Source: Desulfuromonadales bacterium
GTDB taxonomy: Bacteria; Desulfobacterota; Desulfuromonadia; Desulfuromonadales; BM103
Assembly (NCBI GenBank): GCA_030145205.1
Contig: JAQYVZ010000009.1
Location: 1-64,000 of the forward strand
Direction of reading: 5' to 3'
Length of the DNA stretch: 64,000 nucleotides
Shown: positions 31,716 through 41,788 of the stretch, piece by piece
Layout: each line of letters begins with the position of its first letter
Numbering within the stretch: position 1 is the first letter of the stretch
Notes under the pieces: model-generated
Told to the model about the DNA's origin: nothing
What the model saw: only the letters and a program-made list of their open reading frames with translations
Databases searched by the model: none
Position numbers and translations under genes: made by a program

Positions 31716-32222
31716 ATGATGAAAGGATACCATGAAATGCAGCTTTATCTTATGCAGCACGGCCTCGCGCTGGACAAGCAGGACGACCCCGAGCGGCCGC
31801 TTAGCCCGGCGGGAGTTGACCAGGTACGGGAGAGTGCCGCCGGGCTTCGGCAGCTGCGGCTCTCTTTCGACCTGATTGCCGCCAGCCCGAAGCGGCGAGC
31901 CCAGCAAACGGCGGCCTTGGTCGCTGAAGCAGTGCGCTACCCTTACAGCGATATTTTGACGACGGAAGCTCTTCTGCCGCAAGCGAATCCTGAAGATGTG
32001 TTGACTCAGCTGGAGAGCGAAGCTGATGACAGTCGCATTCTGCTGGTTGGCCACCTGCCGCTGCTGGAGGCGTTGGCCACTCGCCTGCTGGGGGGCGGTC
32101 ATGTCGCTTTTGAGCAGGCAGGGCTTTGCCTGTTGGAGCGGACGGACGCTGCTGCACCGGCCTGCCTCCGGTACCTGCTGACGGCCGGTCATCTTTCCCG
32201 TTTTTCCGCCAAGACATCCTGA
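31716..32222 (+). CDS. sixA: SixA-type phosphohistidine phosphatase
   Basis: A 168-residue histidine phosphatase of the SixA branch. The catalytic loop is LMQHGLA with H15, where the usual Arg before the His is a Gln; the second-site SPKRRAQQTA is at about 57-66 and the second His is H113 in VGHLP. SixA removes phosphate from histidine phosphotransfer proteins. I start at 31716, just after AAGGAAGAG; a shorter start at 31737 is possible. A strong hairpin follows the gene. Confidence 0.82.
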   Translation: MMKGYHEMQLYLMQHGLALDKQDDPERPLSPAGVDQVRESAAGLRQLRLSFDLIAASPKRRAQQTAALVAEAVRYPYSDILTTEALLPQANPEDVLTQLESEADDSRILLVGHLPLLEALATRLLGGGHVAFEQAGLCLLERTDAAAPACLRYLLTAGHLSRFSAKTS

Positions 32223-32301: not shown

Positions 32302-32320
32302 TATAAAATAGTGTTTTATA
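32302..32320. promoter_or_regulatory. AT-rich palindrome, candidate operator of the DUF1302 operon
   Basis: TATAAAA (32302-32308), five bases, then TTTTATA (32314-32320) form a perfect 7-5-7 inverted repeat about 15 bases upstream of a predicted -35 box and 120 bases before the DUF1302 start. Size and symmetry fit a dimeric activator or repressor site. No regulator gene is adjacent. Confidence 0.45.
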
Positions 32321-32335
32321 GTTTGGGGTTTTGTT

Positions 32336-32363
32336 TTGTTTTTGTAAGGTTTTAGTGTATAAA
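32336..32363 (+). promoter_or_regulatory. Predicted promoter of the DUF1302-DUF1329 operon
   Basis: TTGTTT (32336-32341), a 16-base spacer and TATAAA (32358-32363). The leader to the DUF1302 ATG is about 70 bases and contains the hairpin GTCCCTGACCAGGGAC at about 32406-32421. Confidence 0.4.
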
Positions 32364-32443
32364 AGACGAGTTGTGCTCCCAAGAGCGGGGGAGCGTGGGC
32401 TCAATGTCCCTGACCAGGGACGTGAACTGTGTCTGGAGGTGTT

Positions 32444-34492
32444 ATGAGTTTTTTAGTGAAGCAAAAAGGAAGCCTGGGGTTGAAAACTCTTGTACTGGCA
32501 GCATTGGCCCTCTCCTGGGCCGTCCCCGGAGTGGCATTCCAGTTTACTCTGGGTGATGTGCAGGGGAACCTGGATACGACCCTGTCGTATGGCCTCAGTT
32601 GGCGGATGGAGGACCCGGATAAGGACCTGATCGGTCTGCAGGAGGGCGGCAACGCCTATTCGCATAACTTCGATGATGGCAACCTCAATTACGACAAGGG
32701 CGATCTGATCAGCAATACGGCCAAGATCACTTCTGAACTGGCTCTTGATTACAATAACTTTGGCTTGTTCGTGCGTGGCTCGGCTTTCTATGATTTCGAG
32801 AACTACGATGGCGATCGGGAGCGGACCGAACTGAGCAGCGGTGCACTCGACTTGGTCGGCCGGGACGCCGAATTACTCGATGCCTATGTCTCCTGGGACT
32901 TTGCCGCAGGCGATGTTTTTGGCCAGGTTCGGGTCGGCGACCAGGTGCTGAGCTGGGGTGAGAGCACCTTTATCCAGAACGGCATCAACGTTATCAACCC
33001 CTTTGATGTCAGCAAATTGAGGGTCCCAGGTGCCGAACTCAAGGAGGGCTTGGTGCCGGTCGGCTTGGTGAGCGCGTCGATCAGCCCCACGGAAAACCTG
33101 AGTTTTGAAGCTTTCTACCAGTACGACTGGGAGAAGGTCGAGATCGACCCGCCCGGCTCCTACTGGAGCACCAATGATTTCGCCGGTGAGGACGGCCAGA
33201 AGGTTATGCTCGGTTTTGGCGACGTGCATGACAACTACGATGCCTCGCCCGAAGACACCCTGCTCGGTGTGCCGCGTGCTTCAGATGTCTATGCCGATGA
33301 CGACGGCCAGTACGGTATCGCCATGCGGGTTTACGCACCGGCTCTGAATGACACCGAGTTCGGTTTCTACTTCATGAATTATCATAGCCGCCTGCCGGTC
33401 CTTAGCTCCTGGACAGGTGATGGCTCGGGCTTGGCTGCAGCTTCGGCCATGCAGAGTGCTGTCACACCGGCGATCATCACCGAGTATGTCACTTCTGGCG
33501 GAACCGCAACCTTGACCGATCTGGTGACGGCCGGCATTACCGCCGGCGCGATGGCTGGTTCCAGCATCTCGACGGTGCAGGCTGGCGCGATTGCTCAGAC
33601 TCTGATGGCGGTTGGCGGCAATGCTGCGCACCCGGCTTTTGCGAGTGCCGTCTCTGCGGCGACCACTGATGCTTACGCCAAGACGGCCAGTTACCAGGTT
33701 GAGTATCCCGAGGATATCAAGCTGTACGGCATGAGTTTCAACACGACGCTGCAGAGTTCTGGCGTGGCCCTGCAGGGTGAAGTCACCCATCGTCAGGATG
33801 TCCCGCTGCAGATTGATGACCTGGAGCTGCTGCTGGCGACCCTGGAGCCGCTGGGGAACCCGATTGGCGATCCGACCTATTCTCAGTTCGAGAATGCCGT
33901 TAGTGCGGGCGACATTATTGCCAACTTGGGCGCATCGATCTACATCCCCGGCTACGAGCGCCTCGATACAACCCAGGTGCAGATGACGGCGACCAAGTTG
34001 TTCGGCCCGACTTTCGGTGCCGATCAGTTCGTCCTGCTGGGTGAAGCGGCTGTGACCCACATTCACGATATGCCGAGCAAGAGCGAGTTGCGTTTCGACG
34101 GCCCCGGTACACCGGTGACCGGCAACCCGAACCATGCCGATCCTGCTTACCCACTGTCAGCTCACGACAACAAGGAAGCCGAGCCTTCCAGCGCCTTTGC
34201 TGATGAGACCTCCTGGGGCTATCGTCTGGTTAGTAAACTTGACTTCAACAACGCGATCGGCGCGATCACTCTGTCGCCACGCATCGCCTGGGCGCATGAT
34301 GTCGACGGCAACAGCCCCGGACCCGGTGGCAACTTTGTTGAGGACCGCAAGGCGGTGACGTTCGGAATCGGCGCCAACTATCAGAACACCTGGACGGCGG
34401 ACCTGAGCTATACCGAGTACTTCGGTGCAGGGCGCTACAACCTGATCAACGATCGGGATTTCCTGGCTCTGAACATCAAGTACTCGTTCTAA
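32444..34492 (+). CDS. DUF1302-family outer-membrane protein
   Basis: A 682-residue exported protein: signal peptide to about residue 31 (TLVLAALALSWAVPGVA), then a beta-barrel-like sequence rich in alternating aromatic strands (LSYGLSWRM, LSFEAFYQYDWEKVEID) ending in the aromatic C-terminus LNIKYSF expected of outer-membrane porins. DUF1302 proteins are found in degraders of hydrophobic compounds and are thought to be FadL-like channels. Residues about 334-415 are an Ala/Thr/Ser/Gly-rich low-complexity stretch inside the barrel, which is odd and may form a large loop or plug. The start at 32444 has GGAGG seven bases upstream. First gene of the envelope transport block; 13 bases precede the DUF1329 gene. 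Confidence 0.85.
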   Translation: MSFLVKQKGSLGLKTLVLAALALSWAVPGVAFQFTLGDVQGNLDTTLSYGLSWRMEDPDKDLIGLQEGGNAYSHNFDDGNLNYDKGDLISNTAKITSELALDYNNFGLFVRGSAFYDFENYDGDRERTELSSGALDLVGRDAELLDAYVSWDFAAGDVFGQVRVGDQVLSWGESTFIQNGINVINPFDVSKLRVPGAELKEGLVPVGLVSASISPTENLSFEAFYQYDWEKVEIDPPGSYWSTNDFAGEDGQKVMLGFGDVHDNYDASPEDTLLGVPRASDVYADDDGQYGIAMRVYAPALNDTEFGFYFMNYHSRLPVLSSWTGDGSGLAAASAMQSAVTPAIITEYVTSGGTATLTDLVTAGITAGAMAGSSISTVQAGAIAQTLMAVGGNAAHPAFASAVSAATTDAYAKTASYQVEYPEDIKLYGMSFNTTLQSSGVALQGEVTHRQDVPLQIDDLELLLATLEPLGNPIGDPTYSQFENAVSAGDIIANLGASIYIPGYERLDTTQVQMTATKLFGPTFGADQFVLLGEAAVTHIHDMPSKSELRFDGPGTPVTGNPNHADPAYPLSAHDNKEAEPSSAFADETSWGYRLVSKLDFNNAIGAITLSPRIAWAHDVDGNSPGPGGNFVEDRKAVTFGIGANYQNTWTADLSYTEYFGAGRYNLINDRDFLALNIKYSF

Positions 34493-34505
34493 AGGGAGAG
34501 ACATT

Positions 34506-35867
34506 ATGCTGAGACACGCATTTATCTGGACATGTTCACTGCTGTTCATCGCTGGCCTGGTTGGCCAGTCGGCGGCGGCTATCTCGGCCGATGAGGCCGC
34601 CCGCCTCGGCAAGGACCTGACCCCCCTGGGCGCCGAAAAAGCAGGCAATGCTGACGGCAGCATCCCAGCTTGGGACGGGGGCATCACCCAGGTGCCTTCC
34701 GGCTACAAGGTGGGCATGCACCACCCTGACCCCTATTCCGGGGACAAAGCAAAGTTCACGATCACCGCGGACAATATGACGCAGTATGCCGACAAGCTGA
34801 CCGCTGGTCAGCAGGCGATGCTCAAGGCCTATCCCGATTACAAGCTGAACGTTTACCCGACCCGCCGCAGCGTGTCCGCACCGCAATACATTTATGACGA
34901 CACCCGTGCCGCGGCGGTCAAGGCGGAACTGGCTGCCGGTAGTTACGGCGTCCTTGGGGTGAGCTCGGGCATCCCCTTCCCGGTTCCCAAGTCGGGCATC
35001 GAGGTCATCTGGAATCACATCCTGCGCTGGCGTGGCCCCGGGGTCGACCGAAGCTTCGGTCTGGCGCCGATGACGCGTGGTGGCAGTTACACCATGGTGG
35101 AATTCAACGAGAAGGTGAATTTTCTCTACAATGACAAGGGGATGACCGAAGCGGAGATGGACAATGTTATTGGTCTGTTCCGCCAGGAGATTTTCGCCCC
35201 GGCCCGCCTTGCTGGTCGTATCCTGCTGGTGCATGAAACCCTTGACCAGAACAAGGAAAACCGCCGCGCCTGGCTCTACAATCCAGGTCAGCGCCGCGTG
35301 CGTCGTGCACCGAACGTTGCCTTCGATAATCCGAAGGAGGGTGGCGACGGCCTGACCACCAGCGATACGGTTGACATGTACAACGGCAGCCCGGAGCGCT
35401 ACGACTGGAAACTGGTCGGCAAAAAAGAGATGTATGTCCCCTACAACAGCTACAAGCTGCACAGCGACCAGCTGAAATACAAGGACATCCTGACGCCGCT
35501 GCATCTCAACCCGGAGTATCTGCGCTACGAACTGCACCGTGTCTGGGTGGTTGAGGCAACCCTGAAAGACGGTAGCCGCCATGTCTACAAGCGGCGGACC
35601 TTCTACATCGACGAAGACTCCTGGCAGATTCTCGCCATGGATCAGTATGACAACCGCGACCAGCTCTGGCGCGTTTCCGAAGGCCATTGCATCAACTACT
35701 ATGAAGTGCCAGCCTTTTGGACGACGGTTGAGGCGCACTATGACCTGCAGTCAGGTCGTTACATCGCGATCAATCTCAATAACGAGCATTCGATGTATGA
35801 TTTCAGTGTCGAGATCGACCGTAATATGTTTACTCCGGCCGCACTGCGGCGTGGCGGCAAACGATAA
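34506..35867 (+). CDS. DUF1329-family periplasmic protein (LolA-like)
   Basis: A 453-residue protein with signal peptide to about residue 25 (WTCSLLFIAGLVGQSAAA), followed by the family opening ISADEAARLGKDLTPLGAEK and GSIPAWDGGI. The fold is expected to be the half-barrel seen in LolA/LolB, which binds acylated molecules in the periplasm. The pairing DUF1302-DUF1329 is a recurrent two-gene unit. A strong terminator follows 15 bases after the stop. No catalytic motif is visible; a lipid-chaperone role is inference. Confidence 0.88.
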   Translation: MLRHAFIWTCSLLFIAGLVGQSAAAISADEAARLGKDLTPLGAEKAGNADGSIPAWDGGITQVPSGYKVGMHHPDPYSGDKAKFTITADNMTQYADKLTAGQQAMLKAYPDYKLNVYPTRRSVSAPQYIYDDTRAAAVKAELAAGSYGVLGVSSGIPFPVPKSGIEVIWNHILRWRGPGVDRSFGLAPMTRGGSYTMVEFNEKVNFLYNDKGMTEAEMDNVIGLFRQEIFAPARLAGRILLVHETLDQNKENRRAWLYNPGQRRVRRAPNVAFDNPKEGGDGLTTSDTVDMYNGSPERYDWKLVGKKEMYVPYNSYKLHSDQLKYKDILTPLHLNPEYLRYELHRVWVVEATLKDGSRHVYKRRTFYIDEDSWQILAMDQYDNRDQLWRVSEGHCINYYEVPAFWTTVEAHYDLQSGRYIAINLNNEHSMYDFSVEIDRNMFTPAALRRGGKR

Positions 35868-35882
35868 GGTTTTTATGCAAGT

Positions 35883-35914
35883 AACGGCCGGGTGATTTGC
35901 CCGGCCGTTTTTTT
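35883..35914 (+). terminator. Strong terminator inside the envelope transport block
   Basis: AACGGCCGGG (35883-35892) pairs with CCCGGCCGTT (35900-35909), a seven-base loop between them, and seven T residues close it. It separates the DUF1302-DUF1329 pair from the Ycf48-RND-acyl-CoA synthetase genes. Confidence 0.9.
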
Positions 35915-35975
35915 ATGTGCGGGTTTCAAGATTTTCTCCCACATTCAAGCTTTTTCGCGGTAAAATTGCTCTTTA

Positions 35976-37085
35976 TTGTGGCGAACGCTGCCGTTACGTG
36001 ATTTTCCCAAACATCTGAAGGTTCGGATTATTTTGCGTGGTCATGTCTTGATATGCGTGCTTCTGTTGCTGTTGTCGGGGATCGGTTTCGCCGATCTGGC
36101 TCAAGCAGAGATGGCCGAGCATGCGCCTCTGGCGGTTGAGTCCCTGTTGCTGGATGGCCAGGTTGCCGGTAAACGGCTGGTTGTCGTCGGCGAGCGCGGG
36201 CACCTGCTGGTCTCCGATGATGCCGGCCGTAGTTGGTCGCAGCGCTCCATGCCGACCCGGGCGACTCTGACCAGCGTGTTTTTTATCAATGAGCACCTCG
36301 GCTGGGCGGCTGGACACGATGCCGTGATCCTGCGGACCATCGATGGTGGCGAAAGCTGGCAGCAGGTCTACGAAGACCGGGACGGTGACCGGCCGATACT
36401 GGATATCTGGTTCCGGAATGAGCATTTTGGTTGCGCCGTGGGCGCCTATGGCCTGTTCCTGATTACTGCCGATGGTGGCACGACTTGGCAGGAGCAGCTG
36501 TTAGATTCGGAAGCTCTTGTCCCTGTTGCGCAGGAGGTTGCTGGTGACAGTGACTGGTACGAGGGTGAAGAGGACTGGGGCGAAGATGTCCACCTCAACC
36601 AGATCCGCCAGGCGGCGACCGGACGCCTTTACATTGCCGGAGAAGCTGGCAATGTCTATCGCTCCGACGATAGCGGTACCACCTGGCTGACGTTGACGCC
36701 TCCCTATGAAGGCTCGCTGTTCGGCAGTCTCCCCTTGCAGGGAGAAGGCCTGCTGGTCTACGGCCTGCGCGGCAACCTGCTGTTCTCTCCGGATGCCGGG
36801 CTGCACTGGGCGGCTGAAACCAGTGGTGTTGTTGCGACTCTGAACGATGCCATCCGCTTGCGGGACGGTCGGCTTGTGCTGGCCGGACTGGCCGGCACCC
36901 TGCTGGTCAGTGGCGATAACGGCCGCACTTTTACGGCCTATCCGCAGGCAGACCGGGCTGGCCTCTCCCGGGTGATCGAAGTTGGTGACGGCACCCTGGT
37001 GTTGATCGGGACCCATGGCGTGCGACGTTTTCAGTTGCCGGCTCCCCAAGGGCTACCGCCCGTGCAGCGGGAGGGTGACCTATGA
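35976..37085 (+). CDS. Ycf48-like beta-propeller protein, exported
   Basis: A protein of about 369 residues with a signal peptide (HVLICVLLLLLSGIGFADLAQA) and BNR/Ycf48-type propeller repeats recognisable by VSDDAGRSWSQ, RTIDGGESWQQ, ITADGGTTWQE, RSDDSGTTWL and VSGDNGRTF. The frame opens with TTG at 35976; a second TTG at about 36033, just before the hydrophobic stretch, may be the true start, and there is no ATG before the signal. Its stop overlaps the RND gene by four bases (ATGA), so the two are translated together. In related loci this protein accompanies MMPL transporters; it may dock the pump to its periplasmic carrier. Confidence 0.82.
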   Translation: MWRTLPLRDFPKHLKVRIILRGHVLICVLLLLLSGIGFADLAQAEMAEHAPLAVESLLLDGQVAGKRLVVVGERGHLLVSDDAGRSWSQRSMPTRATLTSVFFINEHLGWAAGHDAVILRTIDGGESWQQVYEDRDGDRPILDIWFRNEHFGCAVGAYGLFLITADGGTTWQEQLLDSEALVPVAQEVAGDSDWYEGEEDWGEDVHLNQIRQAATGRLYIAGEAGNVYRSDDSGTTWLTLTPPYEGSLFGSLPLQGEGLLVYGLRGNLLFSPDAGLHWAAETSGVVATLNDAIRLRDGRLVLAGLAGTLLVSGDNGRTFTAYPQADRAGLSRVIEVGDGTLVLIGTHGVRRFQLPAPQGLPPVQREGDL

Positions 37086-39406
37086 AAACCCTTTCTTTTC
37101 TCGACTACATAGAAGAGTACCTGTTCCGCTGGCGCGCCCTGGTGATTGCACTGTTTGTGCTGGTGACGCTGGTGCTCGGCGGCGCGGCCTTCCAGTTGCG
37201 GATCGACGCTGGTTTCGACAAGATGCTGCCGCTGGAGCATCCCTATATGCAGACCTACGTCGATTATCGCAATGATTTCGGCGGGGCGAATCGCATCCTG
37301 GTCGCACTTATGGCCGAGGATGGCGACATGTTTACGGCCGAATTCTTTGAAGCGCTGCGTCTGGCGACTGACGAGGTCTTCTTCCTGCCGGGGGTTGACC
37401 GCAGCCGGGTCAGCTCCCTATTTACGCCGAACGTCCGTTTCACCGAGGTGGTTGAAGACGGCATCGCCGGCGGCAACGTGGTGCCGTCCGATTTCCAGCC
37501 TACGCCAGCTGGCCTCGAACAGGTGCGCCAGAATATCCTCAAAGCCGGCATCGTCGGCCGCCTGGTCGCCAACGATTTCTCCGGGGCAATTATCAGCGCT
37601 CAGCTGATGGAAGTGAATCCGTCCACGGGGGAGAAGCTCGATTACATTGCCGTGGCGCACCAGCTTGAGGAGAAGATTCGTAAGCCGTTCGACACGGACC
37701 AGGTCAATGTGCATATCATCGGTTTCACCCAGGTGATCGGTGACATCGCTGATGGTGCCAAACGGGTGGTGATCTTTTTTGTCCTGGCGTTTTTCATCAC
37801 CGGGCTGTTGGGGTATCTCTATACTCGCTCGCATCGGCTCACCGCGCTGCTGGTCTGTTGCTCCATGGTGGCGGTCGTCTGGCAGTTGGGCGGGTTAACC
37901 CTGCTCGGCTACGGCATCGACCCGATGGGGATCCTGGTGCCCTTCCTGATCTTCGCCATCGGTACCAGTCACGGTGTCCAGATGATTACCGCCAACCGAG
38001 TGGAGATCTTCGAGGGGGCGACCAGCATGAATGCCGCCCGGGCCAGCTTCCGGCGGCTGTTGATTCCCGGCGGTGTCGCCTTGCTTTCCGATACGATCGG
38101 CTTTATCACCATCATGCTGATCGATATCCGTGTTATCCAGGAGATGGCGATCACGGCCAGTCTCGGCGTGGCGGCGATTATTCTGACCAACCTGTTCCTG
38201 CTGCCGGTGCTGCTCTCCTGCATCAACTACCCGGAGGACTATCGCCACCGGCTTGAAGCACGCATCGAGCGTATGGACCACATTTGGCTGCAGGTCTCAC
38301 GTCTGGCCAAACCCTGGCCGGCGCTGGTGGTTATCCTGCTCGCCTGCGGTCTGCTCGGTTACGGCGCCATGCGCGGTACGGAAGTGCAGATTGGTGATCT
38401 GCATCGCGGCGTGCCGGAACTGCGTCCCGATTCCCGTTACAATCTGGATACGACCATGGTCGCCGATCATTTCTCGATCGGAGTCGACATGCTGACGGTG
38501 ATTGTCGAGGCGCCGGCCGATGGCTGCATCGACCACCCGGTGATCGACGCGGTCGACCGGTTCGCCTGGCGCATGCAGAACACCGCCGGTGTGCAATCGG
38601 TGGTCAGCTTGCCGCAGATTACCAAGGTGATCAATGCTGGCTGGAACGAGGGCAGTCTCAAGTGGCGGGTTCTGCCGCGTAGTAGCCAGATGTTGGTGGA
38701 GGCGGTGCAGTACATCCCGACCACGAGCGGCCTGCTCAACGCCGACTGTAGCGTGATGCCGGTGATTATTTTCACAACCGACCACAAGGCGGAGACGCTG
38801 GCGCATGTGGTGGCCGAGGTGAAACGGTTCCAGGCGGAGGAGGGTAGCGACCAGCTACGCTTCCGGCTCGCCTCCGGCAATGCCGGGGTGATGGCGGCCA
38901 GCAATGAGGAGGTCGCCGCAGAACAGTTCCCGATTCTGATCTATGTCTTCTCGATTATCATCGGCCTCTGCCTGATCACCTTCCGTTCCCTCAGAGCGAC
39001 CCTCAGCATCATCCTGCCGTTAGGCCTGGTGTCGCTGCTGGCCTATGCCCTGATGGCGGAACTGGAGATCGGCTTGAAAGTCTCCACCCTGCCGGTGGTC
39101 GCCCTCGGCGTCGGTATTGGTGTCGACTACGGCATCTATATCTATAGCCGTTTCCAGCGGTTCCTAAACCAGGGGATGACGATCTTCCAGGCCTATCACG
39201 AGACGCTCAAGGTCACCGGTAGCGGTGTGGTTTTTACCGGGGTGACTCTGGCGATTGTGACGGCGACCTGGATCGTGTCGCCCTTGCAGTTTCAGGCTGA
39301 CATGGGGATTCTGCTGACTTTTATGTTCCTGGTGAATATGCTGGCGGCCATCTTCCTGCTGCCCGCCCTGGCCAGCTGGCTGCTGCGGATCGGCTCCCGT
39401 CGTTAA
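37082..39406 (+). CDS. MMPL/RND-family transporter
   Basis: A 774-residue inner-membrane protein of the HpnN/MMPL branch of RND transporters. Helix 1 is at about 17-37, a periplasmic loop follows, then five helices at about 220-380, helix 7 at about 418, a second loop and five helices at about 615-765. The repeat halves carry FAIGTSHGVQMITANRVE and GVGIGVDYGIYIYSRFQ, the latter with a buried Asp that could relay protons. The family moves lipids or other hydrophobic molecules between membranes using proton-motive force. Direction (import or export) cannot be read from sequence. Confidence 0.9.
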   Translation: MKTLSFLDYIEEYLFRWRALVIALFVLVTLVLGGAAFQLRIDAGFDKMLPLEHPYMQTYVDYRNDFGGANRILVALMAEDGDMFTAEFFEALRLATDEVFFLPGVDRSRVSSLFTPNVRFTEVVEDGIAGGNVVPSDFQPTPAGLEQVRQNILKAGIVGRLVANDFSGAIISAQLMEVNPSTGEKLDYIAVAHQLEEKIRKPFDTDQVNVHIIGFTQVIGDIADGAKRVVIFFVLAFFITGLLGYLYTRSHRLTALLVCCSMVAVVWQLGGLTLLGYGIDPMGILVPFLIFAIGTSHGVQMITANRVEIFEGATSMNAARASFRRLLIPGGVALLSDTIGFITIMLIDIRVIQEMAITASLGVAAIILTNLFLLPVLLSCINYPEDYRHRLEARIERMDHIWLQVSRLAKPWPALVVILLACGLLGYGAMRGTEVQIGDLHRGVPELRPDSRYNLDTTMVADHFSIGVDMLTVIVEAPADGCIDHPVIDAVDRFAWRMQNTAGVQSVVSLPQITKVINAGWNEGSLKWRVLPRSSQMLVEAVQYIPTTSGLLNADCSVMPVIIFTTDHKAETLAHVVAEVKRFQAEEGSDQLRFRLASGNAGVMAASNEEVAAEQFPILIYVFSIIIGLCLITFRSLRATLSIILPLGLVSLLAYALMAELEIGLKVSTLPVVALGVGIGVDYGIYIYSRFQRFLNQGMTIFQAYHETLKVTGSGVVFTGVTLAIVTATWIVSPLQFQADMGILLTFMFLVNMLAAIFLLPALASWLLRIGSRR

Positions 39407-39442
39407 ATAGGTCCGTTCCGTCTTTTCAGAGAAACCGTTTCT

Positions 39443-41377
39443 ATGACTCGATCCGACGCGAAAAATAATCCTCCTGGTGCTTGGCGTCCTGTTTCAAAAT
39501 CGGTGATCGCTGCGATCATGGCGTCCTGTCATGCGTTCGCTGAGCGGCCGGTTTTTGTTTATCGGGTTTCCGGCAAGGAATTTACGGTTTCCTACGCCAA
39601 GCTGCGTGAAGATGTGGTGTTGCTGGCTCGGGCGTTCAAAGAGCGCAAGGTGGAAGTGGGCAGCCGGGTTTTTATCCTGTCTGATAACCGCTATGCCTGG
39701 ATGGTGACCGACCTGGCCCTGATGGCCTTGGGGGCGGTCAGTGTGCCGCGCGGCAGCGATACCCCCTCTCAGGAACTGGAATATATTCTCGACCATGCCG
39801 AATGCACGTTTCTGGTTGCCGAGACCGACGCTCTTCTGGATCGTCATCAGGAGGTTCTGGGCCGGCATAAGGAGATTCGCTCGATTTTCCTGATTGAGGG
39901 AGTCAAAACGCACAAGCTGTTCAGCAAGCTTTACAGCTACAATGACCTGCTCGACGATCGCTCCTTGACCCCGGCCGACTTTGCCGAGTTCGACGCGATG
40001 GTCTCCGCCCACTCCCTGAATGACCTGGTGACCCTGATCTACACCTCGGGGACGACCGGCAATCCCAAAGGGGTGATGTTGACCCACGCCAACATCCTCT
40101 ACAATGTCGAGAAGCTGCCCCCTATCGTGCGTCTGTGCAAGACAGATCTATGGGTCTCGATTCTGCCGAGTTGGCACATCTTTGAACGGGCCGCTGAATA
40201 CGTCGCCCTCTACGGTGGTAGCTGTATCGTCTATTCCACCCTGAAAACCTTTGCCGCAGATCTCGAGCATTATCGGCCAACCGTGGTTGCCACAGTGCCC
40301 CGCCTGTGGGAGGCGCTCTACAGCAAGGTGAGCAATACCGTTGCCGAGAAGGGGCGTGTCGCGCAGACCCTGTTCAAAGCACTGGTCCGGATTTCCATTC
40401 GTTATCACCGGGCCCGTCGCCAGTGGGCAGGCTGTACGCCACAATTCAAAAAGACCGTGTGGCCGGTCCGTGCCTGGCGCAAGCTGGTTGCTGCGGTCGA
40501 GGTCGTCCTGCTGGCGTTGCCCTATGCGCTCGCACAGAAGAAACTGGCCCCACTGCGGCAGAAGTTTGGCGGACAGTTGCGCATGGCGATCAGCGGCGGC
40601 GGCAGCCTGCCCGCCTACCTGGAACAGTGGCTGGATGCGATAGGCTTACGCATCGCCAATGCCTACGGTATGACCGAATGTGCCCCGGCGATTGCCGGCC
40701 GCGGCTTCAACAGCGAGATGTTTGGAACTCTTGGGCCGCCGGTGGAGGGGACTGAACTGCGGATCGTGGACAGTGACGGGCGTGTCGTCCCTGCCGGCGT
40801 CGAAGGCGAGATTGAGGTCAAAGGGCCCCAGGTGTTCCCAGGGTATTACAACGAGGAGGAGGAAAATCGTAAAGCCTTCACGGAGGAGGGGTTTTTCCGG
40901 ACGGGTGACTTGGGAATGCTGACCATGTCGGGGGAATTGCTGTTGACCGGGCGCTGCAAGGAAATCATCGTGCTGGCCAGCGGCGAGAATATTGATCCGA
41001 CACGCATTGAGGGGGCGATGGGACAGCTGCCCTTCGTGGCGGACGCGGTGCTGGTCGGGCAGGATCGCAAGGGTCTTGCCGCCCTGATCGTGCCGGACTG
41101 GGAAAAACTGAAAGACTTTTTCGCCGAGAAATTCCACCAGGATTCGGAAAGCACTGAAGACCTTCAGAAAGATCCGGCCCTGCGTGAGCGGGTCAGGCAG
41201 GAGATCAATCGTCTGTTGCAGGCCAAGAACGGCTTCAAGCCCTACGAGAAGTTGCAGAAGATCGATTTTCTGAAAAAAGAGTTTACCGTGGGTGAAGAGC
41301 TGACCAACACCATGAAGAAGAAACGTCACGTAATTGAAAAGCAGTACCGGGAGTTGATTGACCGGTTGTTCAAATAA
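39443..41377 (+). CDS. Long-chain acyl-CoA synthetase (AMP-forming)
   Basis: A 644-residue ANL-superfamily ligase that makes acyl-adenylate and then acyl-CoA. The P-loop-like motif is LIYTSGTTGNPKGVMLTHAN at about 197-216; then comes NAYGMTECAP at about 410, TGDLG near 488 and the hinge GRCKEIIVLASGENIDPTRI. The sequence resembles the bacterial FadD15/long-chain class rather than acetyl-CoA synthetase. It begins 37 bases after the transporter, so substrates released to the cytoplasm could be trapped as CoA thioesters (vectorial acylation). Chain length is unproven. Confidence 0.9.
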   Translation: MTRSDAKNNPPGAWRPVSKSVIAAIMASCHAFAERPVFVYRVSGKEFTVSYAKLREDVVLLARAFKERKVEVGSRVFILSDNRYAWMVTDLALMALGAVSVPRGSDTPSQELEYILDHAECTFLVAETDALLDRHQEVLGRHKEIRSIFLIEGVKTHKLFSKLYSYNDLLDDRSLTPADFAEFDAMVSAHSLNDLVTLIYTSGTTGNPKGVMLTHANILYNVEKLPPIVRLCKTDLWVSILPSWHIFERAAEYVALYGGSCIVYSTLKTFAADLEHYRPTVVATVPRLWEALYSKVSNTVAEKGRVAQTLFKALVRISIRYHRARRQWAGCTPQFKKTVWPVRAWRKLVAAVEVVLLALPYALAQKKLAPLRQKFGGQLRMAISGGGSLPAYLEQWLDAIGLRIANAYGMTECAPAIAGRGFNSEMFGTLGPPVEGTELRIVDSDGRVVPAGVEGEIEVKGPQVFPGYYNEEEENRKAFTEEGFFRTGDLGMLTMSGELLLTGRCKEIIVLASGENIDPTRIEGAMGQLPFVADAVLVGQDRKGLAALIVPDWEKLKDFFAEKFHQDSESTEDLQKDPALRERVRQEINRLLQAKNGFKPYEKLQKIDFLKKEFTVGEELTNTMKKKRHVIEKQYRELIDRLFK

Positions 41378-41446: not shown

Positions 41447-41788
41447 ATGAGTGATTTGCTATCGTGTCCGGAATGTGGCTCCGAATACACCTACGAAGAT
41501 CGGGGGCTGTTTGTGTGCCCGGAATGTGCCCATGAATGGGCTGTCGAAGCTGTTGACGAGGGAGCTGACTCCGCAAAAGTTATCCGTGATGCGCACGGCA
41601 ATCTTCTGGAAGATGGCGATACCGTGACAGTCATCAAAGACCTCAAGGTCAAAGGTTCTTCCCTGGTGGTCAAGGTCGGCACGAAGGCTAAAAACATCCG
41701 GCTGGTTGACGGTGATCATGATATTGACTGCAAGATTGACGGTATCGGCGCCATGAAACTGAAGTCGGAATTCGTGAAAAAAGCCTGA
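41447..41788 (+). CDS. PhnA/YjdM-family zinc-ribbon protein
   Basis: A 113-residue protein with an N-terminal zinc ribbon (C7-x2-C10 and C24-x2-C27) and the C-terminal KOW-like PhnA domain ([20 protein letters not shown]). The name PhnA is historical: these proteins are not phosphonoacetate hydrolases. GGAGAG precedes the ATG at 41447. It is monocistronic or read through from the acyl-CoA synthetase gene 70 bases upstream. Function unknown. Confidence 0.92.

Follow-up and report, generated by a model that had tools for sequence, protein, structure and literature searches.

Which compound crosses the cell envelope by way of five adjacent genes in a Desulfuromonadales bacterium, and does it travel inward or outward? 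The genes lie on the plus strand of a 64,000-nucleotide stretch (the window; positions 1 to 64,000 of contig JAQYVZ010000009.1, assembly GCA_030145205.1) and encode a DUF1302 outer-membrane barrel (gene A), a DUF1329 periplasmic protein (B), a Ycf48-like propeller (C), an MMPL/HAE3 RND transporter (D) and an AMP-forming acyl-CoA ligase (E). We read the locus as an AmeABCD-type cassette, served by a ligase of its own, that is probably specialised in this lineage for the uptake of long-chain fatty acids or of hydrophobic carboxylates much like them, and place the probability of this reading, which is built on sequence comparison, at roughly 0.57. The cassette would stand in for FadL as a fatty-acid uptake system. 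We favour this reading because FadL and the cassette exchange places in front of the same operon and are seldom found together, because lipases, ligases and β-oxidation genes adjoin the cassette in relatives, because Pseudomonas putida counterparts are needed for growth on Tween 20, and because of the predicted folds of A and B. If it is correct, Gram-negative bacteria would possess a second fatty-acid uptake route besides FadL, and the exchange in front of one operon offers a concrete genetic test of that route and of an RND protein working inward. The exchange also suggests a substrate and a direction for DUF1302 and DUF1329, widespread function-orphan families that recur in degraders of terpenes, hydrocarbons and aromatics.

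A preliminary description of this DNA had proposed that the locus moves a hydrophobic acyl compound across the envelope, with fatty acids, terpenoid acids or aromatic lipids as possible cargo and either import or export as the direction. The trans-envelope route finds support in the comparisons below, and the options can be narrowed, as fatty acids appear favoured over the other listed substrates in this lineage and import over export. As a whole, that interpretation holds in part: the likeness of the pump to HpnN is not supported. In its own genome, moreover, the ligase cannot be tied to β-oxidation. As far as searches of the open-access literature go, the FadL exchange, the linkage to lipase and β-oxidation genes, the Ser-His signature of the pump and the recurrent hairpin are new.

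FadL and the cassette in front of the fad operon

We recorded the upstream neighbour at 62 FadB loci from 56 genomes (61 of 75 listed places, 14 being left out, and one same-genus fragment). FadB was counted only at 300 bits or more; a lipase–cassette set divergent from ligase–FadB (L055, genome G042) thus falls outside the 62. A further 80 named loci, described below, were kept out of this count because several are the same contigs (L111=G008, L112=G106, L113=G078, L115=G113, L144=G057). The upstream neighbour is FadL at 14 loci and the cassette at 13, and at none are both present; 23 show neither, with at least 6 kb seen, and 12 run into a contig end. A typical FadL locus reads FadL–ligase–FadB–thiolase–acyl-CoA dehydrogenase, and a typical cassette locus A–B–C–D–ligase–FadB–thiolase–acyl-CoA dehydrogenase. 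The two thus occupy an identical place before the ligase–fadBA operon, although FadL is a single outer-membrane channel (family PF03349) without carrier or pump. Some loci depart from this in detail: FadL directly precedes FadB in L193, with a weak ligase match ahead, no ligase was seen in L258, the cassette of L054 lacks one, and L229 begins inside B. In G041, G048, G049 and G057, the ligase that follows D opens the ligase–FadB–thiolase–acyl-CoA dehydrogenase operon (Pfam matches for L047, and gene orders). On the tree of FadB proteins, at least five FadL/cassette switches are needed, and both states occur within one genus, g45, where G106 has the cassette and G108 and G109 have FadL. A FadL-family match (E up to 0.001) is absent from ten of the 13 genomes with a cassette operon, the others (G049, G075 and G098) having one or two.

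The same mutual scarcity is seen at the level of whole genomes. Among 136 genomes of the order, with the cassette called from its DUF1329 protein at E up to 1e-100 and FadL at more than 300 bits, 45 carry the cassette and 30 carry FadL, and a single one (G032) carries both (Fisher p 3.9e-5, uncorrected for phylogeny). When only the 65 FadB genomes are considered, the two again meet in one (p 1.5e-5, likewise uncorrected). In G043, the FadL gene before the fad operon is split into two overlapping frames by a stop or frameshift (L196, 5970-7471), perhaps through decay or a sequence error, and a lipase–cassette set lies elsewhere in this genome (L052).

The genes around the cassette point to fatty acids as well. 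A VolA-like lipase directly precedes A in 13 loci: L049, L052, L055 and ten of the 80 named loci (L116, L172, L176, L178, L181, L183, L184, L185, L188 and L189), whose hosts include a Nitrospirota metagenome-assembled genome (MAG), Lysobacterales, Rudaea, Tahibacter, Marinicella and other Proteobacteria. The lipase family PF12262 was confirmed for L049, L116, L185, L055 and L183, the others being called by a custom profile. In Vibrio cholerae, VolA releases fatty acids from phosphatidylcholine for uptake (PMC9496633). Lipase, cassette, ligase, FadB, thiolase and acyl-CoA dehydrogenase are consecutive on one strand in L049. Outside this order, the gammaproteobacterial locus L171 has acyl-CoA dehydrogenase, thiolase and FadB-like genes before the cassette and a ligase after it. 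In G050, a short VolA-like lipase fragment, matched by the custom profile and perhaps a relic, lies beside A (L044, 15974-16213).

The ligase itself is a recurrent part of the locus. An orthologue of E (60-80% identical) directly follows D in ten same-family relatives (G010, G001, G003, G018, G015, G012, G008, G014, G006 and G017), the copy in G008 being cut by a contig end. Two main cassettes of the family continue past D without it (G004 and G011), as do the extra copies L062-L064. Outside this family, the gene after D in G041, G048, G049 and G057 encodes another ligase, with 29-31% identity to E. The fad-operon ligase is about 30% identical to E, which is therefore not that ligase.

The cassette, its predicted folds and published counterparts

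Domain calls for the window proteins are Pfam and NCBIfam profile scores, the NCBIfam listing comprising 25 models. All five genes are open frames of the families that the preliminary description had named, and the hydrophobic N-termini it took for signal peptides on the first three proteins were found when the sequences were read by eye. It had placed the start of the locus at 32302, where no gene begins. Gene A (32444..34492; PF06980, 5.9e-181) has a frame open from a GTG at 32429, and the ATG at 32444 has a better placed Shine-Dalgarno-like GGAGG; the protein ends in the expected barrel C-terminal Phe. Gene B (34506..35867; PF07044, 1.2e-157; LolA_like, 1.5e-13) carries an N-terminal extension of about 135 residues ahead of its LolA fold and scores 51.3 bits against the LolA-superfamily model PF17131, above the cut-off of 30. 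Gene C (35976..37085; PF14870, 1.5e-20) may start at TTG 35976 or at a later TTG near 36036, and stays below the cut-off of the Ycf48 equivalog NF010237 (76.4 bits against 326). It overlaps gene D (37082..39406; PF03176, 9.7e-25) by the previously noticed ATGA at 37082-37085. The best NCBIfam model for D is the HAE3 model TIGR00921 (159.6 bits, below the cut-off of 351.9). Its supposed likeness to HpnN exists at superfamily level only, with 56.4 bits against TIGR03480, far under the cut-off of 751.85, and we rejected HpnN-like hopanoid export on this ground. Gene E (39443..41377; PF00501, 1.2e-81) starts 36 bases past D and reaches no cut-off among the NCBIfam models shown.

The model of A (predicted local distance difference test score, pLDDT, 91.9) has 18 strands of at least eight residues, the number found in Occ/OprD channels, and its barrel is broken by a predicted four-helix insert (33422..33679; mature residues 294-379, from the model's secondary structure). 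Occ/OprD channels are its best fold matches, with BenF-like 3jty at Z 23.7 (root-mean-square deviation, rmsd, 3.3 over 325 residues) and OccK1 3sys at Z 23.4, and porins of other families score close behind, AlgE reaching Z 21.5. Since AlgE is an alginate exporter, the fold of A fixes neither direction nor cargo. The Occ/OprD family is named for carboxylates, and its channels hold an inward-facing arginine ladder. In A, arginines R21, R78, R130, R245, R283, R602 and R638 (mature numbering) are more than 90% conserved in sequence. PF06980 is the sole Pfam match of A and the FadL family PF03349 is not matched; FadL is also not among the 50 rows of the fold lists for A, which is no evidence of absence. 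The model of B (pLDDT 92.3) predicts a LolA fold, matching LolA3 of Porphyromonas gingivalis (9tp6, Z 21.5, rmsd 2.6 over 236 residues) and a DUF1329 protein (4z48, Z 19.4), both from model residue 136 on.

The pump carries a signature of its own. Codons 37967..37972 encode Ser296-His297 in transmembrane helix 4 (TM4), and 39125..39130 encode Asp682-Tyr683 in TM10. Ser-His is found in 95 of 95 rows from ordinary cassettes and seven of seven from variant cassettes (102/102), and Asp-Tyr in 94 of 95 (one gap) and seven of seven, with some organisms fetched twice and thus duplicated in these counts. MmpL3 has Asp-Tyr in both aligned halves, whereas D keeps it in TM10 and has Ser-His in TM4, and so lacks the MmpL3-type relay of two Asp-Tyr motifs. 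By analogy with MmpL3, these TM4/TM10 residues may form a proton relay in D. The other MMPL matches in the own genome, frames of 1036-1100 residues and one of 542, are unusable as a control for the TM4 motif.

The named loci are the best 80 of at least 595 pattern matches to the window DUF1329 protein, and 35 loci were fetched from relatives. The order A–B–C–D is kept in 67 of the 80 named loci, where contig ends truncate 12 of the remaining 13, and in 23 of the 35 relatives' loci, the remainder being cut loci or the variant C–D–A2–B; the families thus occur together beyond chance, contrary to the outcome that the preliminary description had named as refuting. Among the matches listed, the closest named loci belong to Deltaproteobacteria/Desulfuromonadales-type MAGs, including Desulfuromusa sp. 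BB25, which points to the same order for the window.

Contiguous genes for DUF1302, DUF1329, a Ycf48/COG4447-type protein and an HAE3 RND pump define the AmeABCD type, and by family and order A–B–C–D is predicted to be such a cassette of the HAE3 subfamily, an architecture that is not new. As a transport proposal also exists for the P. putida counterparts, neither the grouping nor the transport idea is new, and the earlier remark that these families have little biochemical definition understated the case. In Castellaniella defragrans, a four-gene ameABCD deletion, reported in 2018, lowered monoterpene tolerance and raised the net influx of Nile Red in cells treated with carbonyl cyanide m-chlorophenylhydrazone (CCCP), and was interpreted as loss of efflux; growth on monoterpenes was likewise poorer with an ameB insertion (PMC6394551). 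The same source describes the composition and organisation of AmeABCD as conserved across the lineage, and HAE3 pumps as moving substrates into the periplasm. The families and their order are identical in the window, but AmeABCD was published as a monoterpene efflux system in a terpene island, and here a ligase follows D, relatives have the set ahead of the fad operon, and lipases precede it in other loci. In P. putida, PP_0765/PP_0766 (DUF1302 and DUF1329) and PP_2018/PP_2019 (a periplasmic protein and an efflux-type transporter) are needed together on Tween 20. They have been suggested to form a novel transport system, the DUF1329 protein having predicted contacts with barrel and pump (PMC10866462, through which we take the data of Thompson et al. 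2020). By locus tags, these genes form two separate loci, whereas those of the window form one stretch, with a hairpin at the same boundary.

Other systems are more distant. The benzene degrader ORM2a strongly expresses a similar 'Nanopod' cluster of a porin-like protein, DUF1329, a YCF48-related protein and MMPL, which differs in two extra genes in between, in its location on a genomic island and in benzene as the proposed substrate (PMC13101534). AupA/AupB of Marinobacter likewise pairs outer and inner membrane proteins for uptake of hydrophobic substrates, but has a FadL-like barrel and a narrow distribution, and its mutants grow normally on palmitic acid (PMC5989066). TOL_3187 of Thalassolituus is built differently, with MMPL and LolA-like domains within one protein (PMC6304351).

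Direction and cargo

In the mechanism we propose, A, whose fold is nearest to Occ/OprD channels, would admit the acid through the outer membrane, and the LolA-fold protein B would shield it through the periplasm. The propeller C would dock the loaded carrier onto D, which, by proton flow through the asymmetric TM4 Ser-His/TM10 Asp-Tyr relay, would bring the acid into the inner membrane or through it, for E to trap as acyl-CoA. What we infer here is the substrate in this organism, the direction, how transport is energised, the hand-off from the carrier and the part of the propeller as a docking protein. A more tentative proposal, for which the odds fall somewhat short of even, is that a proton-driven RND protein works inward in a four-protein, carrier-fed active import of long-chain fatty acids across both membranes and is able to displace FadL; in some relatives, lipase, outer channel, carrier, importer, ligase and β-oxidation would then lie in one stretch, and the asymmetric His/Asp relay would mark this pump lineage.

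Several observations weigh against fatty-acid uptake. RND pumps are known mainly as exporters. AmeABCD itself was published as an efflux system (PMC6394551). Neither FadL nor the cassette precedes 23 of the 62 fad operons, and the FadB tree is a quick one of 60 rows with long-branch warnings. The 300-bit limit for FadL was picked after two score classes were seen, and the association weakens when any FadL match is counted (23 of 45 cassette genomes against 72 of 91 others, p 0.0013). Significance is lost in a test that takes phylogeny into account (median p 0.125 over 13 independent pairs, range 0.031-0.625), although the trend keeps its direction, with on average 4.4 opposite pairs, 0.3 alike and 8.3 without difference. 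In G032, FadL precedes the fad operon while divergent cassettes are found at other places in the genome, and the cassette of L173 and L174 (Perlucidibaca, Moraxellaceae) has FadL and a ligase as neighbours. Some cassettes adjoin genes of aromatic, amine or aldehyde metabolism, others sulfatases or none of these. The own assembly (3.72 Mb in 317 contigs, listed as 100% complete) yields no thiolase match and no FadB at 1e-150 (best E 1.5e-6), two low-scoring acyl-CoA dehydrogenase matches and one retained FadL-family gene of the lower-scoring type. A 9.9-kb same-genus stretch with acyl-CoA dehydrogenase beside thiolase and FadB matches it over only 306 unrelated bases. With no thiolase and no close FadB, E cannot be tied to β-oxidation in this genome; either the assembly misses fadBA, or the acids go into lipid synthesis or repair in this organism. 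Next to the own genome's next-best ligase (L075), no fatty-acid family was matched.

The main rival is an efflux conduit that, as proposed for AmeABCD, clears toxic hydrophobics (fatty acids, terpenes, aromatics) from membranes, with the ligase and β-oxidation genes merely using or detoxifying them. The tolerance and Nile Red phenotypes of the ameABCD deletion speak for it, as does the description of HAE3 transport as directed into the periplasm (PMC6394551), and catabolic neighbours fit tolerance as well as uptake. We nevertheless consider it unlikely, as the cassette occupies FadL's place before the fad operon, lipases precede it, none of the five proteins has a Pfam match to membrane-fusion or TolC-type families, growth of P. 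putida on Tween 20 requires the counterparts (PMC10866462), and uptake, too, explains the poor growth of the ameB insertion on monoterpenes (PMC6394551). These same lipases, FadL's place and the β-oxidation genes point inward, which makes it improbable that pump and carrier instead move an acyl lipid from the inner to the outer membrane for envelope maintenance, with E returning acyl chains to lipid synthesis. Elsewhere, lipids or lipoproteins do travel outward by means of LolA-fold carriers and MMPL pumps, B matches LolA in fold, and thiolase and FadB went undetected in the own assembly; yet the looked-up open reading frame (ORF) clusters of the 35 relatives' loci show no recurrent lipid-biosynthesis gene next to the cassette.

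Still less probable, in our view, is that the window copy belongs to a broad uptake family and imports something other than fatty acids, such as aromatic or terpenoid acids or alkanes, for activation by E. The genes for aromatic, amine or aldehyde oxidation next to paralogous and plasmid cassettes, the expression of a similar cluster in the benzene degrader (PMC13101534) and the properties of E, which differs from the fad-operon ligase and reaches no shown NCBIfam cut-off, would all agree with this, but other families of the same order carry the cassette on the fad operon itself. Because related cassettes, some of them on plasmids, adjoin catabolic genes of other kinds, the family taken together looks like one for transport of hydrophobic growth substrates, of which fatty acids would be the likely case here.

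The B–C junction, variant cassettes and flanking genes

Between B and C, the plus strand holds a terminator-like hairpin of 12 pairs with a T-run (35883..35909), so that the five genes need not form one transcript, and a single five-gene transcript is doubtful. With identical junctions removed and at least eight pairs required, a hairpin with T-run occurs at 52 of 107 distinct B–C junctions (24 of 31 in relatives, 27 of 75 in named loci, and the window), against 0.5 expected from base shuffles; a looser rule with duplicates gave 54/113. Other junctions have few (2/101 at A–B, 4/108 at C–D, 0/24 at D–E). Its sequence varies between lineages. The hairpin fits a division of the cassette into putative A–B and C–D(–E) modules, a surplus of barrel and carrier relative to propeller and pump, and the two P. 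putida tag pairs. Such a surplus is seen in ORM2a, with 106 spectra for the porin-like protein, 158 for DUF1329, 65 for the YCF48-related protein and 60 for MMPL (PMC13101534). If the carrier is abundant, a shuttle would become more likely than a fixed conduit. A separate C–D promoter would account for the hairpin equally well. Upstream of A (window and 14 relatives, 15 sequences), no shared operator emerged, a TTGTTGTATA core being common to eight close relatives and not in the window, and a sigma-70 scan returned one promoter-like site, on the minus strand, with 4.2 expected.

Eight variant cassettes with a divergent DUF1302 protein (L066-L073, in G010, G012, G016 and G032) comprise seven of order C–D–A2–B and one cut by its stretch. 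Several of those whose neighbours were looked up adjoin molybdenum hydroxylase or aldehyde ferredoxin oxidoreductase genes, which suggests another substrate. In L063 and L064 (G010 and G012), the genes after the cassette encode a quinohaemoprotein amine dehydrogenase subunit, a radical SAM protein and an ABC transporter (assigned by Pfam in L063, with the same clusters present in L064). Another copy in G010 (L062, 10420-19000) precedes four related ORFs, of which the two checked are sulfatases, and a glyoxalase/polyketide-cyclase-type protein. L134 holds two DUF1302–DUF1329 pairs, of which the first is accompanied by C and D and the other by neither up to the end of the match. Six of 40 matching plasmid records, picked from annotated rows, were examined, and five hold a cassette of three or four parts in varying order. 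On plasmid pBHB of Comamonas sp. 7D-2 (L261), a pump gene of this family lies amid transposase genes, with DUF1302 and DUF1329 not listed alongside in gene tables that are incomplete.

On the same strand, about 70 bases past E, lies a gene for a PhnA/YjdM-family protein of 113 residues (41447-41788; PF03831, 1.7e-32). Upstream of the cassette, a SixA-type phosphohistidine phosphatase is encoded on the plus strand (31716-32222; TIGR00249, above cut-off), and the SixA ORF cluster is also found upstream of A in nine relatives' loci.

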